A program made the translations under genes and the position numbers. 64,000 bases of DNA from positions 2,571,501 to 2,635,500 of the forward strand of contig NZ_CP076361.1 of the NCBI RefSeq assembly GCF_018798885.1. Direction: 5' to 3'. The notes under the pieces are model-generated. The model was not told where the DNA came from, searched no databases, and was given only the letters and a program-made list of their open reading frames with translations. Shown one piece after another: positions 15,849 to 23,292 of this stretch; the first letter of the stretch is position 1, and every line of letters begins with the position of its first letter. Source of the stretch: Gemmobacter fulvus (GTDB lineage: Bacteria; Pseudomonadota; Alphaproteobacteria; Rhodobacterales; Rhodobacteraceae).

Positions 15849-17795
15849 ATGAGCCTTGTCAGCATCGCCCGCGAGGGCAGCATCGCCGTTGTCACCATCG
15901 ACAACCCGCCGGTCAATGCCCTGGGGCAGGCGCTGCGCCAGCAGCTGTGGGATGCGGTGGCGGCGCTGGATGCCGACGCCGCCGTGCAAGCGGTGCTGCT
16001 GATCTGCGCCGGGCGCACCTTCATCGCCGGGGCCGATGTCAGCGAGTTCGGCAAGCCGCCGGTCGCGCCGCATCTGCCCGATGTGGTGGCCCGGATCGAG
16101 GCGGCGGCAAAGCCCTGGGTCGCAGCGATCCATGGTGCGGCGCTGGGTGGTGGGTTCGAGGTGGCGCTGGGCTGCCGGTTCCGTCTGGCACTGGACAGCG
16201 CCTCGGTCGGGTTGCCCGAAGTGGGGCTGGGCATTGTGCCGGGGGCGGGGGGCACGGTGCGCACCCCGCGTGTGGCGGGCGTGGCGGCCGCGGTCGATCT
16301 GGTGACGGGCGGCAAGCCGCTCCGCGCGGCCAAGGCGCAGGCGCTGGGCCTGATTGACGCGGTTGTCAGCGGGGATCTGCGGGCGGCGGCGATTGCCTTT
16401 GCGCAGGAGGCCATCGGCAAGCCCTTGCCGCTGCCCGCCTCGGCCCGCCCGGTTGTGGCCCCGGAGGCGGGGTTCTGGGACGACCAGCAGGCCGCCATCA
16501 CCAAACGTGCCAAGGGCGAGGTGGCACCGCTGCACGCGCTGGCCTGCCTGCGCAAGGCGACCGAGGTGCCCTTTGCCGAGGCGATGGCCTTCGAGCGCGA
16601 AACCTTCCTTGCCCTGCGCGGCTCGGATCAGGCGGCTGCGCTGCGCCATGTGTTCTTTGCCGAACGCGCCGCGCCCCGGCCCGCCCATCTGGGCGCGGCG
16701 CAGCCCTTGCCGCTGCGCGCTGCTGCCGTGATCGGCGGTGGCACCATGGGGGCGGGGATAGCTGCCGCCTTGCGGGATGCGGGCCTGCCGGTGACGCTGA
16801 TCGAGCGGGATGCAGCGGCGTTGGAGCGTGGCGTGACCAATCTGCGCGCCATTTTCGACGGCGCGGTGGCGCGGGGCCGCCTGACCGAGGCGCAGGCGGC
16901 AGAGCGTTTGGCGGGCGTTACCGCCTCGACCGATTATGCCAGCCTCGCCGGGGCGGATCTGGTGATCGAGGCGGTGTTTGAAGAGATCGGCGTGAAACGC
17001 GCCGTCTTTGCGCAGGTGGCAGCGGTTTGCAGGCCCGATGCGGTGCTGGCCACCAATACCTCTTATCTGGATCCGGCGGCGATTGCGCAAGGTGTGCCCA
17101 ATCCGGCGCGGTTTATCGGGCTGCATTTCTTCAGCCCGGCCAATGTGATGAAACTGCTGGAAATCGTGCCCACACCCGACACGTCGCCCGACGTGCTGGC
17201 CACCGGCTTTGCGCTGGCCAAGACGCTGGGCAAGATCCCGGTGCAGGCGGGCATCTGCGAAGGCTTCATTGGCAACCGCATCCTGAAACGCTACCGTGCC
17301 GGCGCCGAGGCCTTGGTGCGGCGCGGCGTTGCCATCGCGGCGGTGGATGCCGCCATGCGCGGCTTCGGCTTTGCCATGGGGCCGTTCGAGGCGCAGGATC
17401 TGGGCGGGCTCGACATCGCCTTCCTGCAACGCGAGGCAGCACGGGCCACCGGGCAGGACGTGCCAGAGACATTGGGCGACCTGTTGGTGCGGGCGGGCCG
17501 CAAGGGGCAGAAAACCGGCGGTGGCTGGTATGATTATGCGCCGGGGCAGCGCAAGCCGCAGCCCTCTGCGACCGTGGCCGATCTGCTGGCCGATCAGATC
17601 CGCGCGGAAGGCCAGATGGATGGCCCGGCGATTGCCGAACATCTGGTGGCCGAAATGGCGGCAGAGGGGCAGGCGATTCTGGCCGAAGGCATCGCCCGCC
17701 AGCCCGCCGACATCGACCTTGTGGAGATCCATGGCTACGGCTTTCCGCGCTGGCGCGGCGGGCCGATGTTTCATGCCCAAAACCGCGCCGGTTAA
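15849..17795 (+). CDS. Enoyl-CoA hydratase / 3-hydroxyacyl-CoA dehydrogenase fusion (FadB-like)
   Basis: A 648-residue bifunctional beta-oxidation enzyme. The N-terminal crotonase domain (about 1-190) has NPPVNALGQ, GRTFIAGADVSEFG and HGAALGGGFEVALGCR. The NAD-binding dehydrogenase domain starts at AAVIGGGTMGAGIAAALRD, with ANTSYLDPAAIAQ and the catalytic histidine in GLHFFSPANVMKLLEIV, followed by two C-terminal dehydrogenase repeats. In the paa locus it would do the PaaF and PaaH steps on 2,3-dehydroadipyl-CoA in one polypeptide. It is cotranscribed with the importer and converges on the split kinase gene, overlapping by 4 bp. Confidence 0.9.
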   Translation: MSLVSIAREGSIAVVTIDNPPVNALGQALRQQLWDAVAALDADAAVQAVLLICAGRTFIAGADVSEFGKPPVAPHLPDVVARIEAAAKPWVAAIHGAALGGGFEVALGCRFRLALDSASVGLPEVGLGIVPGAGGTVRTPRVAGVAAAVDLVTGGKPLRAAKAQALGLIDAVVSGDLRAAAIAFAQEAIGKPLPLPASARPVVAPEAGFWDDQQAAITKRAKGEVAPLHALACLRKATEVPFAEAMAFERETFLALRGSDQAAALRHVFFAERAAPRPAHLGAAQPLPLRAAAVIGGGTMGAGIAAALRDAGLPVTLIERDAAALERGVTNLRAIFDGAVARGRLTEAQAAERLAGVTASTDYASLAGADLVIEAVFEEIGVKRAVFAQVAAVCRPDAVLATNTSYLDPAAIAQGVPNPARFIGLHFFSPANVMKLLEIVPTPDTSPDVLATGFALAKTLGKIPVQAGICEGFIGNRILKRYRAGAEALVRRGVAIAAVDAAMRGFGFAMGPFEAQDLGGLDIAFLQREAARATGQDVPETLGDLLVRAGRKGQKTGGGWYDYAPGQRKPQPSATVADLLADQIRAEGQMDGPAIAEHLVAEMAAEGQAILAEGIARQPADIDLVEIHGYGFPRWRGGPMFHAQNRAG

Positions 17796-18301
17796 TCGGG
17801 AACAGGCCCCCCGGTCAGTGTCGGCAGGGGGGCATCCAGCACCGCGCGCAGCTTGCGCGCCAACTCGTCCCGGCGATAGGGTTTTGACAGCAGCTGCACC
17901 CCGTGATCGAGCCGACCGTGATGCACGATGGAGTTTTCGGTATAGCCCGAGGTGAACAGCACCCGCAGCGACGGATACTCTGCACAGGCCTTTTCGGCCA
18001 GAAGCCGGCCCGGCAGCTCTCCGGGCATCACCACATCGGTGAACAGCAGCGTCACATCCCCGGCGGCACGGATGGCCGCCAGCGCCTCGCTGCCATCGGC
18101 GGCCATGGTCACGCGGTAGCCAAGGCTTTCCACCAGCCGCTTCACATGATGGCGCAGCGCCGGATCATCCTCTGCCGCCACGATATGTTCGCCCGCGCCC
18201 ATCGGCACGATACCACTGGCGGGCATCAGCACATCTGCGCGCTGCTGCGCGGCACTGCGCGGCAGATAGAGGCTGACCGTGGTGCCCCGATCACGTTTCA
18301 T
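17792..18301 (-). pseudogene. 3' fragment of hybrid sensor kinase: receiver domain, with an element-supplied start
   Basis: The frame encodes MKRDR (from the inserted element) followed by GTTVSLYLPR, the last strand of an HATPase domain, and then a receiver domain. The receiver has acidic residues E44/D45/D46, phosphoacceptor D89 in LLFTDVVMP and K140 in LLSKPY. It is the C terminus of the kinase whose first 795 residues lie at 20908-23292. The element end provides AAGGAGG (18311-18317), 9 bases before the ATG at 18301, so the fragment could be made as a free 169-residue receiver. Listed as pseudogene because the parent gene is interrupted, but it is intact as an ORF. Confidence 0.85.
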
Positions 18302-18310
18302 AATGCATCT
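18270..18310 (-). other. Right attachment junction (attR) of the serine-recombinase element
   Basis: On the minus strand the element end GATCG meets the kinase sequence GCACCACGG at a GG dinucleotide (18286-18287). The element side contains ATGAAACGTGATC, which pairs as an imperfect inverted repeat with the other element end (ATGAAAGCCGATC). The dyad axis of the joined ends falls exactly in the middle of GG, as expected for a serine recombinase crossover. Confidence 0.75.
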
Positions 18311-18316
18311 CCTCCT

Positions 18317-20410
18317 TCAGAATCCGGGTAGGGTCATGGACCTGTCTGCAATCTTATCAAGCGCTTGCCTTGGCCTGCGCGCGGCTATTTCCTGCAAGCC
18401 TATCCGAACCGCCTCGGTTTCGAGCGCGGCCAGCGGTATTTTCCATGGGGCGGAATACAGGATCTGTGTCGCGGGGAGGATCTGCGCGCGGATCAGTTTG
18501 TGGACAGATGCCACGCAGACGCCGAGCCGCTTGGCGGCAGCATCGACGCTCACGGTCTTCTCCTCCTCGGCCTCGGGATCATAGGGTGGGATCGCGAGCC
18601 TGTCGCGCAATTCAGCCACGCGGACGGTCGTCCATGTCTCGTCATCCTCAGTGCGGCAGCGCATCCGGTTGAGGGTCACGGCAAGTTCCCTGTCTGGCCA
18701 GTGCCCGCCAAGTTTGCGCAAGATGTCGGCAGCAGTGCGCTTTGGCCCCGGTGGGAAGCGACCGGTTCGGCGCCGGGCCAGCCTGACCTCGGTGTGGCGC
18801 CCGCCGATCCAGTGAATGAGCAGAACGAAGGCGTTCTCCGCCTGATCGATGTCGATCACCACTTCCTCGATCAGCAGGCGCACCAGTCGCTGCCGCGCGC
18901 GGGCATCGGTCCCGGCGGCATTCCATGCCGAGGGCAGGTCGGTGGCGAGCCGCAAGAGGACATCAGGATCGACCCCGGGCCTCGCGATGAGTTCTGCGCC
19001 CAAAGCGGCAAGTTTTTGCTCGACCGAGGCCACCCGCTCCAGGGCTGCGTTCCACCGCGCCTCCAGCGTGCGCGCAACATGCCGTTTGGCGGGATCGACA
19101 TGCTCATATCGCCGCTCGGCCAGTTCCGCGGCGTATCGTGCCTCATCAAGCTCCTTCTCGACAGCAAGCCGCACCACCTCCTGTGCCCGGGTGGCCTGCT
19201 GTCCCGCCAATAGGGCAGCCTGCACGGCGCGGCCGGAGACCGCTTCGAGCAGTTGGCCGGTCACGGCCGCATCGATGCCGCCCCCGCCCGCACCGATGCA
19301 GAGCCCAGCCCCGACATGGCTGTCATCGCCCCGACATTGGTAACGATGGGACAGGTCGGTCCCGGTCTTGTAAAAGACCCGCATCATCCGGCCGCACCTT
19401 GCGCAACGCGCCATGCCGCTCAGCAGCGCCTGTCCGCCGCGCCCGGATTTGCGGGCCGTTCGCTTTTGCATATGCGCGTTCTCCCCCAGCAGGACGCGGT
19501 TCTCCTCATAGGCCTGCCAGTCGATGTATCCTTCGTGATTGCTCTTGATCAGCACGCCCCACTCCTCGATCGCCCGGTGATGGCCGCTGGTCTTGCGCGC
19601 CTCGCCCTCGACCACCGCCATCCGATTACCGGTCCGGCCGAAGGCATAGGCACCAGCGTAGACCGGATTATGCAGCACCTGCATCACGCTGTGATAGGCA
19701 GGCTTGCGCCAAGCGATCTTGCGCAGGGCACCGTTGCGCAGGACCACTGGCAGATGGACATCGGCCGCGCGCAGCCACAGGAACACCTGGCGACCGCTGC
19801 CAAGCTCGCGGAACTTGGCGAAGATCAGGTGGATGGCCTGCCGGACCCGCTCATCAGGATCCATCTCAATCCTGTCGTCCTCGCTCCAGCAGAACCCAGG
19901 CGGCAAGGTAAAGCGGAGTTCTCCCCGCTTCGCCTTCGCATCGCGGGCCGCCAGCCCACGTTGCCGCAGAAGACTGAGTTCGTATTCCGACATGGTGCCC
20001 TTCAGCCCCAGCAGCAGTCGATCATTCATTTGACGCGGATCGTAGACCCCCTCCGGGTCAACGACCAAGGCCCCCGTCAAGGCGCAGAGGTCAATCAGAT
20101 GATGCCAGTCCCGGCCATTACGGGAAAGCCGCGAGGCTTCGATGCAATAGACCGCCCCCACCGTCCCGGCACAGACTTCCGCGACCAGACGCTGGAAGCC
20201 CGGGCGGGCAATCAGACCAGAGCCGGAGCGTCCCAGATCCTCATCGATGACCCGGACCTCGGCGAAGCCGGTGTCGCGGGCGGCTTCGGCCAGCTGGTAT
20301 TGCCGCTTCTGGCTTTCGAGATTCCCGAGCACCTGAGCCATCGTCGACTGGCGAACGTAGACGAGTGCGCTGCGGGCAAGGTGCTCAGCGGTGATCTTTG
20401 CGTGCATCAT
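18317..20410 (-). CDS. Large serine recombinase with C-terminal helix-turn-helix
   Basis: The 697-residue protein has a resolvase catalytic domain (about 13-165) with nucleophile Ser22 in ALVYVRQST, EDLGRSGSG and EASRLSRNGRDW. A recombinase domain follows (about 170-290). A zinc ribbon has Cys336, Cys339, Cys359 and Cys371. Next come a coiled-coil-like stretch and a C-terminal excisionase-like HTH (VDAAAKRLGVCVASVHKLIR, then APWKIPLAALE). The ATG at 20410 overlaps the ORF A stop as ATGA and has GGAGG upstream; a TTG at 20428 is the alternative. Its stop overlaps the Shine-Dalgarno of the receiver fragment. It likely drives integration and excision of the element. Confidence 0.92.
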   Translation of the reverse strand: MMHAKITAEHLARSALVYVRQSTMAQVLGNLESQKRQYQLAEAARDTGFAEVRVIDEDLGRSGSGLIARPGFQRLVAEVCAGTVGAVYCIEASRLSRNGRDWHHLIDLCALTGALVVDPEGVYDPRQMNDRLLLGLKGTMSEYELSLLRQRGLAARDAKAKRGELRFTLPPGFCWSEDDRIEMDPDERVRQAIHLIFAKFRELGSGRQVFLWLRAADVHLPVVLRNGALRKIAWRKPAYHSVMQVLHNPVYAGAYAFGRTGNRMAVVEGEARKTSGHHRAIEEWGVLIKSNHEGYIDWQAYEENRVLLGENAHMQKRTARKSGRGGQALLSGMARCARCGRMMRVFYKTGTDLSHRYQCRGDDSHVGAGLCIGAGGGGIDAAVTGQLLEAVSGRAVQAALLAGQQATRAQEVVRLAVEKELDEARYAAELAERRYEHVDPAKRHVARTLEARWNAALERVASVEQKLAALGAELIARPGVDPDVLLRLATDLPSAWNAAGTDARARQRLVRLLIEEVVIDIDQAENAFVLLIHWIGGRHTEVRLARRRTGRFPPGPKRTAADILRKLGGHWPDRELAVTLNRMRCRTEDDETWTTVRVAELRDRLAIPPYDPEAEEEKTVSVDAAAKRLGVCVASVHKLIRAQILPATQILYSAPWKIPLAALETEAVRIGLQEIAARRPRQALDKIADRSMTLPGF

Positions 20411-20630
20411 GACCTGCGCCCTCCGCAATCTTGCCCGCCGCCATCAGCAGCAGGTCTGCCAATGCCTCCAGGATCGCCGGTGTCGCGGGCGCGGCCGGGG
20501 GGCGGTTCGGGCTGTCGTTCAGGTCCAGGCAGAGCTGACTCGGCGTCGCTTGCTTTTGTTGCGAGAGGGGTCGGGGTCGGCAGGGCATGCGTATCCTCCT
20601 CGGGAATCGATCCCCCACAGGATGACGCAA
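20385..20630 (-). CDS. Small element-encoded protein (ORF B), unknown function
   Basis: An 81-codon frame overlaps the end of ORF A and the start of the recombinase. The middle and C-terminal parts (SQLCLDLNDSPNRPP, then ILEALADLLLMAAGK) look like real protein with an amphipathic helix, and they resemble small proteins I recall upstream of recombinases in similar elements. The N-terminal third is arginine/proline-rich, and the true start may be the ATG at 20588. Function unknown; a recombination directionality or accessory factor is possible. Confidence 0.5.
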   Translation of the reverse strand: MRHPVGDRFPRRIRMPCRPRPLSQQKQATPSQLCLDLNDSPNRPPAAPATPAILEALADLLLMAAGKIAEGAGHDARKDHR

Positions 20631-20907
20631 GCTGACCGTGACGCATTAGATCGAGTGTCTGTGCAAGCGACCGCAAGGCTTCGAGAGCAACAACCGGCGG
20701 GCCGCTTTCCATGCGTGCGCAATAGGCGGCATCGCACATCCAGGGGGGCAAAGTCCGGAAGAACCCCTGCCGTTCCTCGACCAGCACAGAGTCCGATCCG
20801 TGCCTGCGTCCCCCATCGCGCGCGCGTAGAACCCGCCCGTAAAGAGGGTGCCAAGGATATTCGATCCGCAAATCACGCAGTTGGTATGTGGAATGAAAGC
20901 CGATCAC
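20407..20907 (-). CDS. Element ORF A, DUF5372/y4bD-like, currently fused in frame to the kinase
   Basis: About 166 codons contain LRIEYPWHPLYGRVLR, RTLPPWMCDAAYC and ESGPPVVALEALRSLAQ, which resemble the DUF5372 / Y4bD-Y4pK small proteins found beside serine recombinases. The tail after residue ~100 is Pro/Ala-rich and overlaps ORF B. In the present state there is no own ATG: translation comes in frame from the kinase, or from GTG at 20907. In a circularised element the ATG at 18301 would join it in frame as MKRDR-VIGFHSTYQ. Its TGA overlaps the recombinase ATG. Confidence 0.6.
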   Translation of the reverse strand: MIGFHSTYQLRDLRIEYPWHPLYGRVLRARDGGRRHGSDSVLVEERQGFFRTLPPWMCDAAYCARMESGPPVVALEALRSLAQTLDLMRHGQLASSCGGSIPEEDTHALPTPTPLATKASDAESALPGPERQPEPPPGRARDTGDPGGIGRPAADGGGQDCGGRRS

Positions 20908-20925
20908 CAGACCGGGTTCGGAATA
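20885..20925 (-). other. Left attachment junction (attL) of the serine-recombinase element
   Basis: Kinase sequence GAACCCGGTCT meets the element end TGATCGGCTTTCAT at a GG dinucleotide (20907-20908). Element side GATCGGCTTTCAT is the inverted partner of ATGAAACGTGATC at the other end (10 of 13 positions match). A TC core three bases to the left would also restore an open frame but is not centred on the dyad. Confidence 0.75.
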
Positions 20926-23292
20926 GATGTTCACATGCCCGCCCGACTGGCTGACAAAGCCATGCACCATCGACAGGCCCAGCCCTGAGCCCTTGCCGAC
21001 GGGTTTGGTGGTGAAAAACGGGTCAAACGCCCGGGCAATCACATCGGCGGGCATGCCGCTGCCGGTATCCGACAGGGCAAGCCGCAGAAATTCGCCTTCG
21101 CGCGCGCCGGGATTGGTGGCGGCGTAATCGGCATCAAGGCGCACGTTGGACACCTCGATCATCAATTGCCCGCCCTCTGGCATCGCATCGGCGGCATTGA
21201 CGGCAAGGTTGAGTAGCGCCGTCTGCAACTGGGTCGGATCTGCCTCGATCAGCCACAGATCCGCATCGGCCAGCATCCGCAGCGAAATATAGGCGGGCAG
21301 GGTGCGCAGCAGCATCCGGTTCAGTTCGGCCAGCACATCGCGCGGATCCAGCGCCAGCGGCCGCAGCGGCTGTTTACGGGCAAAGGCCAGCAGGCTGCCG
21401 ATCAGTTCGGCCCCGCGTTCGGCGGCGTGCATCACCGCTTCGGCCATGGCGCGGCTGTCGGGATCGTGGCTGCGATCGGCCAGCAATTCGGCATTGCCTA
21501 GCATCACGGTCAGCAGGTTGTTGAAATCATGCGCCACACCGCCGGTCAGCTTGCCGATGGCCTCGAGCTTCTGGGTCTGGTGCAGCTTTTCGGCGGTTTC
21601 CACCTGGTCGCTGACATCCTGCACTGATCCGATGACGCGCAGGGCCTCGCCATCTTCGTCGCGCAGCGCCACCGCCCGTTCGCGCACATGCGCATAGGTG
21701 CCGTTGCCCCGGCGCAGGCGGTATTCGGCGCGCCACTCATCGCGCCGCCCCGCGGCAAAGGCACGGAACTGCCGCTCCAGCAGCGCGGACTCGTCGGGGT
21801 GCACTGCCCGCAGCCAGGGCGTTGGGCGCTTGTGCGTGCCTGCCCAATCCAGCCCGAAGTTTTCCAGCGCGCCATCCGAAAAGGTCACGGTATCGGCGCG
21901 CAGATCCATCTCATAGATCATGTCTGCCGCCACATGCAGCACGGCGCGCAGGCGTTCCTTTTCTTCGTGCAGGCTGCTGACATCGACGATGGAGCCGACA
22001 ATGCGCTGCACTGCCCCATCCGGGCCGCGCGCCGCGGCGGCCCGGTCGATCACATGGGCGATGCGGCCATCGCTGCGATGCACGCGATAGCTCGTTTCCC
22101 AACGATCCACGCCGTAGGCGAGGGCCGTGGCTTCGGCGGCGAGCATTCGGGGCAGATCGTCACGATGAATCGCCGCGCGCCAGCTGCCCGGCCCCTCGAT
22201 CCCCAGCTTGGGGTCATAGCCGAACAGGCGTGCATAGCTGTCACTGCGCCAGGCTGTCCCATCGGCCGGGGACCAAGTGTAGATCACATCCTGCGACGCT
22301 TCTGCCGCCAGCCGGAACCGTTCCTGCCCATCACGCAGCGCCGTCACATCGACGATGGAGCCGACACTGCGCGCCAGCCGACCATCTGCATTTCTGAAAA
22401 ACCGCGCACGATCAATGACATGCGCATAATGCCCATCGGCGCGCGCAAAGCGGTATTCCTCGGTCCAGGTTTCGGCCCCCGAGGCCAGAGCCGCAGCATG
22501 ACTTCGGCGGATGCGGTCGCGGTCGGTGGGGTGGATCAACTGGAACCAGCGGTCCACCGTGGCAGCACCCCCATGCGGGTCGTGGCCATACTGGGTCTGC
22601 AAAGCCTCGCTCCACCAATGCGTGCCGGTGTCGAAGTCGAGGATGAAAATCACATCGGTCGAAGCCGAGGTCGCCAGACGAAAGCGGTCCTCCGCCTCGT
22701 GAATCGCACTGACGTCGATCATGGAGCCGATCATGCGACGGGGTGCGCCGGTGCTGTCGCGCAGCAGGAACCCCCGGTCGATCACATGGGCAATGCTGCC
22801 ATCCGCGCGCAGAAACCGATATTCGGCCTGCCAGATGTTCGATCCGTCCGGCGGATCGTTTTCCGTCGCCTCTGACATGCGCGCCCGGTCGTCGGGGTGA
22901 ATTCGATCCAGCCAGCGCTCCAGCCGTTCCGGGAAAACCGCCGGGTCATACCCGAAGGTTTCGGCAGTTTCGGCCTTCCACTGGAGGGTGCCGCTCTGGA
23001 TATCCCAGTCAAACACCACATGCCCCGCCGCCCGCGCCGCCAGACGATAGCGGCTGTCCCAGCCGGACAGCGCCAGAATGGCCGGGGCGTTTCTGCCCTG
23101 CCATGGCAGATCCATCTCATGCGCCGTCCAATCCGGCTGTTCCGCGATCAGCCGGGCGATGGTGTCGCGGTCGGGCAATGCGTCACCCGACAGGAGGCGC
23201 GCTGAGGCATTGGCAAATATAGCACGCCCGGCGGCTTCATCCAGAAGCCAGACCGGCTGCGTGATTCCGTCCAGATACTCTGTCTCTGTCAT
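20908..23292 (-). pseudogene. Hybrid sensor histidine kinase, 5' part (interrupted)
   Basis: The first 795 codons of a multi-PAS hybrid kinase. Four PAS/PAC repeats (about 80-200, 205-325, 328-445, 450-565) share the pattern EYR.....Y.HVIDR. The HisKA box has the phosphorylated histidine at H588 (AHDFNNLL). The HATPase domain shows LAVNAADAMPEGG, SDTGSGMP, FDPFFTTK and GKGSGLGLSMVHGF. No transmembrane segment is visible, so it is probably cytosolic. The gene is cut after SEPGL; the receiver remains at 17792-18283. With the element removed the protein would be 959 residues. As it stands, the frame runs on into ORF A to 20407 (961 codons), losing only the last HATPase strand and the receiver. 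Confidence 0.9.

Follow-up and report, generated by a model that had tools for sequence, protein, structure and literature searches.

The stretch of DNA analyzed here (the window, 64,000 nucleotides of the Gemmobacter fulvus genome) contains a serine-recombinase element that splits a gene for a hybrid PAS histidine kinase. All features described lie on the minus strand. The element occupies positions 18288 to 20906, or 2619 bp between two GG crossover cores (20907 to 20908 and 18286 to 18287), which were placed using the flanks of seven genome copies and uninterrupted kinase orthologues. At the first core, the 5′ part of the kinase gene (20908 to 23292, assigned from its domains and orthologues) runs as ...NIYSEPGL, without a stop, into open reading frame (ORF) A (20407 to 20907), which begins VIGFHSTYQ, has no ATG start and displays remote similarity to DUF5372; the fused frame (20407 to 23292) is 961 amino acids long. 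ORF A overlaps the small ORF B (20385 to 20588), which has its own Shine-Dalgarno (SD) sequence and ATG and a similar frame in relatives, and which in turn overlaps the recombinase gene (18317 to 20410). The recombinase displays the Resolvase (PF00239, E 7.5e-23), Recombinase (PF07508, 2.5e-9) and Zn ribbon (PF13408, 4.6e-6) domains that define large serine recombinases. Its stop codon (18319 to 18317) is directly followed by the SD sequence AGGAGG (18316 to 18311), 9 nt 5′ of an ATG (18301 to 18299); relatives with an identified right end have an ATG in the corresponding position. From the ATG in the window, at what the preliminary description called the recombinase-distal end, the frame reads MKRDR and continues into the host receiver sequence GTTVSLYLPR, and the 3′ part of the kinase gene (17792 to 18301, identified as an ORF with a receiver domain) thus starts with the element's own codons.

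Five uninterrupted kinase orthologues from related genomes carry the joined sequence YSExxxGTTVxLYLPR (YSERDLGTTV in L062), and the empty site in the window is therefore EPGL|GTTV. Joining the two element ends at the GG core predicts the circle sequence ATG AAA CGT GAT CGG GTG ATC GGC TTT CAT, encoding MKRDRVIGFH. As a circle, the element would thus contain a single gene, MKRDR-VIGFHST..., in one frame just 3′ of the recombinase stop, and integration would take the ATG away from ORF A. The preliminary description had proposed just this arrangement, namely a SD sequence, ATG and MKRDR at one end, a body without ATG at the other, and one in-frame gene upon joining, and the minus-strand sequence bears it out; its further statement that all four joints keep frame likewise holds for the window copy, for which the empty site, the circle and both integrated joints are in frame. 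An 8-bp repeat present at both ends, GTGATCGG, was considered as the crossover core and rejected, as it would break the frames and the flanks of the multiple copies reveal it to be element sequence.

The G. fulvus genome (G000) contains seven full recombinase copies including that in the window, and the element is identical over 2619 bp in all of them. With three different flanking contexts among the seven, these copies indicate recent mobility. The six copies outside the window all lie in IS66 tnpB, with the tnpB frame out of register with ORF A, and the joined host flanks of one of them give back TnpB through SKR|GDR. Five of the six (L001, L002, L004, L005 and L007) have common IS66 flanks, of at least 643 nt on the left and all 1468 nt on the right, as if they had moved with, or been copied with, the IS66 element, so that the element seems to be a hitch-hiker on an interrupted IS66; the sixth lies in a different IS66 variant. 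An eighth, damaged copy with a broken recombinase frame (L008, contig C7) is likewise found in IS66 tnpB.

A single copy is expected to be in frame one time in three, and the frame in the window therefore amounts to more than chance only through a survey of relatives. When the ends are cut such that the host gene becomes whole again, the far ATG shares its frame with ORF A in 27 of the 33 loci for which both ends were examined (eight of them cut by hand), which supports the proposal in the preliminary description that the element's first gene contains the crossover without loss of frame. One element accounts for four of the 27 (L001, L003, L006 and L016); counted once, it leaves 24 as judged by eye, unclustered. 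Of the other six loci, two deviate by a single nucleotide, both of them carrying an indel, and the remaining four give no information (L024, L029, L030 and L049). In 25 loci, cuts were scanned over a 10 × 10 grid for total lengths of 19 to 37 nt, with neither gaps nor a dinucleotide requirement, and the score depended solely on how well the host protein (TnpB, TnpC, IstB or kinase) was restored. A distance of 27 nt between the far ATG and the first His codon of ORF A was best in 19 of the 25, and 26 nt in two, L018 with a deletion in the left arm and L028 with one in the host part.

Eight more distant loci were joined by hand, which gave back recognizable transposase motifs of the hosts, and all eight circles are in frame; these joins were cut for host restoration without being blind to the ORF A frame, and the two sides of the joint have no base in common in L011 and L039. 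We take the hosts to be IS21 istB (GGTGTGKTH, L009; a second istB, at IGDPT, L039), IS66 tnpC (L033), an IS110 transposase gene (L034), two genes for DDE transposases (YNTVRPH, L035; YVILDIFSR, L045), tnpB at GIDWR (L044) and a transposase-like gene (SGAVESANK, L011). Examples of in-frame circles are MKRTVANYQHSAYGFRFATIAYPWHPLFGR (Sinorhizobium), MNAPLQFPVHSAHIGQEVEIHYRWHPLYGR (Robbsia) and MRDRWREFRNIPSAESDESSFEEVQVLDPRHPLYGK (L044). Several loci were set aside as repeats of L001 in both flanks and element (L002, L004, L005 and L007), as near-copies of L016 (L017 and L021) or as damaged (L008). No frame was assigned, for instance with an end missing or the host not recognized, to L010, L012–L015, L020, L023, L031, L036, L038, L040–L043, L046, L052–L054 and L057; among these, the ATG-containing pattern located no right end in L020, L031, L046, L052, L054 and L057, where the recombinase or the right end is missing or cut.

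ORF A looks to be selected as a protein. Its mean column identity is 43% over 28 sequences, and the ratio of nonsynonymous to synonymous substitution rates (dN/dS) in six pairs is 0.07, 0.16, 0.06, 0.11, 0.15 and 0.16, versus 0.62 to 3.67 in the other two frames of the same pairs; nine pairs were calculated, of which two had saturated dS and one (0.87) spanned an indel, and two of the six quoted have a dS of about 1.5. The preliminary description had counted an internal ATG in most copies as evidence against its proposal; in the interval from the joint to the motif that is conserved, an ATG is absent from 30 of the 31 in-frame rows (the exception being L032), and 17 of the 31 have no ATG, GTG or TTG there. 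The anti-SD duplex of the window element (−11.7 kcal/mol) is matched by 2.2% of sequence windows in the 3′ part of its recombinase gene. Over 32 rows, the median element has an SD-like stretch 5′ of its far ATG that is equaled in 5% of the windows taken from the recombinase gene of the same element. For this analysis a 27-nt spacing was assumed in L024, L029, L030 and L049, and L028 was given that of L027; none of these is counted among the 27 in-frame loci. In L019, L058 and L059, the stop codon of the recombinase gene and the far ATG share bases (ATGA). The division of the gene between the two element ends that is seen in the window, together with an ORF A that appears to evolve as a protein, also occurs in relatives whose recombinases are about 35–45% identical and which lie in several different transposase motifs.

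The explanation that probably accounts best for these observations is that the circle attachment site, attP, lies within the 5′ end of ORF A and that integration removes the start of this gene, as a translational analogue of promoters that form at circle junctions. The protein family and the identical copies in different sites suggest that the element is excised as a circle and integrated by its serine recombinase. The order in the circle would be the recombinase, immediately followed by the SD sequence, ATG and ORF A, then ORF B, then the recombinase again. The attP would be palindrome-like, with a right arm that holds codons 1 to 5 of ORF A, its ATG included, the SD sequence just outside this arm, and a left arm comprising the next codons; integration would separate codon 5 from codon 6. 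Only ORF A would be subject to this switch, because ORF B and the recombinase have their own start codons and can be made in both states. ORF A protein would then be made mainly from the circle and hence act at the circle stage, perhaps as a helper of integration or as a brake on re-excision. With somewhat less assurance, we favor the broader proposal that the element represents a previously undescribed class of serine recombinases parasitic on insertion sequences at conserved transposase motifs, in which the attachment site is the 5′ end of the first gene, the start exists only in the circle and integration stops translation initiation.

Several observations weigh against a start codon assembled in the circle. 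A scan of the same 25 loci that preceded the one described above, in which an identical dinucleotide was required at both joints and gaps were allowed, found 27 nt to be best in only 14, other multiples of three in 5 and out-of-frame lengths in 6; the second scan was tuned after the first, with two references added, one of them consensus-like. Most right ends were located by a pattern that contains the ATG, and the others by eye, so that this codon seems invariant partly by construction. The damaged copy L018 has a broken circle frame, and the SD sequence is weak in L033 (−3.5), L029 and L051 (both −5.0) and L037 (−5.4). Potential GTG or TTG start codons lie ahead of the motif in 14 of the 31 in-frame rows, including a TTG in the window element, and this count omits the joint codon itself, which in the window is GTG, a possible weak start. 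Natural circle or tandem junctions were not found by pattern in viral contigs, in the source genome or, with an HSAY-type pattern only, in 385 genomes; in plasmids, a blastn search matched 77 records, none over more than 80% of the query. Finally, the ATG and a mirror-image CAT form the arms of the palindrome-like attP, and recombinase geometry alone may keep their spacing and hence the frame.

This last point leads to the strongest alternative, in which the ATG is no more than part of a binding arm of attP, translation of ORF A begins at an internal TTG or GTG or in host sequence, and the open frame across the circle is an accident passed on by descent. The circle site is indeed palindrome-like in 18 of 20 elements (shuffle p < 0.05; spacing assumed in three of the 20), the ATG mirrors the CAT of a His codon in most elements, and the 27-nt spacing in 19 of 25 loci would follow from geometry as well; moreover, Rhodobacterales elements have a TTG at codon 17, which in L001 comes directly after the tnpB stop. 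However, the 17 rows without any ATG, GTG or TTG ahead of the motif are at odds with internal initiation. In addition, the right-end ATG is kept in seven elements in which the mirror codon, codon 10, is not CAT (L009, L011, L034, L035, L039, L044 and L045; right ends located by eye). A real start is favored because the ATG persists without its CAT mirror, the SD sequence lies (by eye) outside the ATG...CAT palindrome, and no alternative start is common to the set. We consider geometry as the sole cause unlikely.

Two further readings start from the integrated state. The preliminary description held that integration swaps 5′ ends between a host gene and an element gene. This is true of the window copy, but typing of 31 left joints does not support it as a general feature: 16 are sense insertions in tnpB in which host frame and ORF A differ by one, 10 are antisense, one lies in another gene (L024), one has no clear type (L048), and only three are in frame, namely the window copy and the indel copies L018 and L028. 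The host/element swap is thus particular to the window copy. On the explanation favored above, the fusion of the kinase to ORF A and the ORF that joins MKRDR to the receiver would be by-products of an off-target insertion that fell in frame by chance. A reading in which both arms donate an outward ATG (that of the left arm being CAT on the other strand), restarting the 3′ fragment of the host gene and lowering the cost of insertion, would accommodate the in-frame MKRDR-receiver ORF of the window and a Paracoccus yeei plasmid copy (L024) in which an annotated DUF542 gene starts at the left-arm ATG. We regard it as improbable, since the sense tnpB insertions that were read closely have tnpB in a frame other than that of the element ORFs, and it leaves the conserved ORF A frame unexplained. 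That ORF A is meant to be fused to the interrupted host gene, as the in-frame kinase fusion might suggest, is very improbable given the 16 offset and 10 antisense joints, and as a general feature it was rejected on the basis of the typing.

A start codon assembled by recombination would set the element apart from the closest known systems. Large serine integrases and transposases have Resolvase, Recombinase and Zn ribbon domains, use GG or GC cores and integrate without long duplications. The window element agrees with them in all these respects; unlike them in general, it is 2.6 kb long, with only ORF A, ORF B and the recombinase seen in it, and most of the relatives examined lie in conserved transposase motifs. 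In mycobacteriophage BPs and its relatives, immunity depends on integration: the crossover lies in the 3′ part of the repressor gene, whose product loses part of its C-terminus upon integration (PMC4557955). The likeness is that attP lies inside the element's own gene, here judging by sequence, and that integration, which alters the protein made in those phages, would do so here as well; in the window element, however, the crossover would be in the first codons, and integration would remove the ATG and SD sequence and change the N-terminus. ORF A matches no known repressor family, in contrast to the BPs repressor with its C-terminal degradation tag. In ICEKp1 (P3′end) and ICEclc (Pcir), circle formation joins a promoter to int (PMC13023037). 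Here, too, the joined ends would activate a gene beside attP, but a promoter is joined to a gene there, whereas the junction of the present element would provide a coding body with its ribosome-binding site and start codon. In Tn4451 (TnpX) and Tn916, joining of the ends in the circle reportedly turns on the gene next to attP. State-dependent genes at attachment sites are known to work through promoters or altered C-termini; here the translation start itself would be moved. Among the titles listed by a literature search, with most subscription journals outside its reach, none deals with serine elements that interrupt transposase genes, with a circle-assembled start codon or with the ORF A element family, and the available part of PMC3925955 has no bearing on such elements.

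If this explanation is true, a translation start put together by recombination would let the element sense its free-circle state by simple post-transcriptional means. Genes of the ORF A kind would also be easily missed, with a start about 2.6 kb from the body, and this may be why annotation is missing in plasmids: a tblastn search found ORF A in 136 plasmid records, and among the 60 matches listed, 32 have no annotated feature under the match (7 more lie in records without annotation, the PLSDB annotation table being incomplete). No relatives of the element were confirmed in viral contigs. The family would further be a parasite that interrupts other insertion sequences, and its members in transposase motifs would provide natural recombinases whose attB sites vary and can be defined.

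The relatives possibly form such a family of insertion-sequence parasites. Related recombinases lie within conserved motifs of several transposase genes in L009, L011, L032–L035, L037, L039, L044, L045 and L056–L059, the hosts being IS66 tnpC, IS21 istB (at two motifs), IS110 and DDE transposase genes. The P. yeei DUF542 gene mentioned above occupies L024:2375-3016, its ATG being the element's left-arm CAT read on the other strand, and the element seems to have given the interrupted host gene a new start.

The preliminary description had spoken of related recombinase/DUF5372 elements, but membership in DUF5372 (PF17342) does not hold for ORF A of the window: the match (E 0.13, 12.7 bits) falls below the Pfam cut-off of 25 bits, and plain membership was rejected. 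In the ORF A family, 9 of 28 members, including that of the window, match DUF5372 at E ≤ 1, the best at 3.7e-7, and an HPL.GR-like motif is shared. The predicted structure of ORF A has a mean predicted local distance difference test score of 83.9; its fold had no match in the PDB at E ≤ 0.001, with weak SH3-like hits, and a profile search against solved structures gave a best E of 0.26. In L072/L073, a Pfam-positive DUF5372 ORF likewise adjoins a transposase motif, presumably IS3-like, with no ATG just upstream and no full recombinase ORF within the stretch read.

ORF B (20385 to 20588), conserved and placed between ORF A and the recombinase, is a candidate directionality factor; its Sinorhizobium homologue matched no Pfam family. 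A promoter scan of the linear element gave two weak minus-strand hits versus 0.3 expected, none of them at the ends. Three terminator-like hairpins were found versus 1.0 expected, and one of this kind spans the left joint (20915 to 20900); half of it is host sequence, and it may be due to chance.

An identical dinucleotide is present at both joints as GG in the window and the G. fulvus tnpB copies, and as GC in the Haematobacter copy L016 and the P. yeei copy L025; L031 has GC at the left joint only. In L037, L051 and L055, no identical dinucleotide is compatible with the 27-nt cut. The GC core is palindromic, and GC-core copies are found in tnpB in both orientations.

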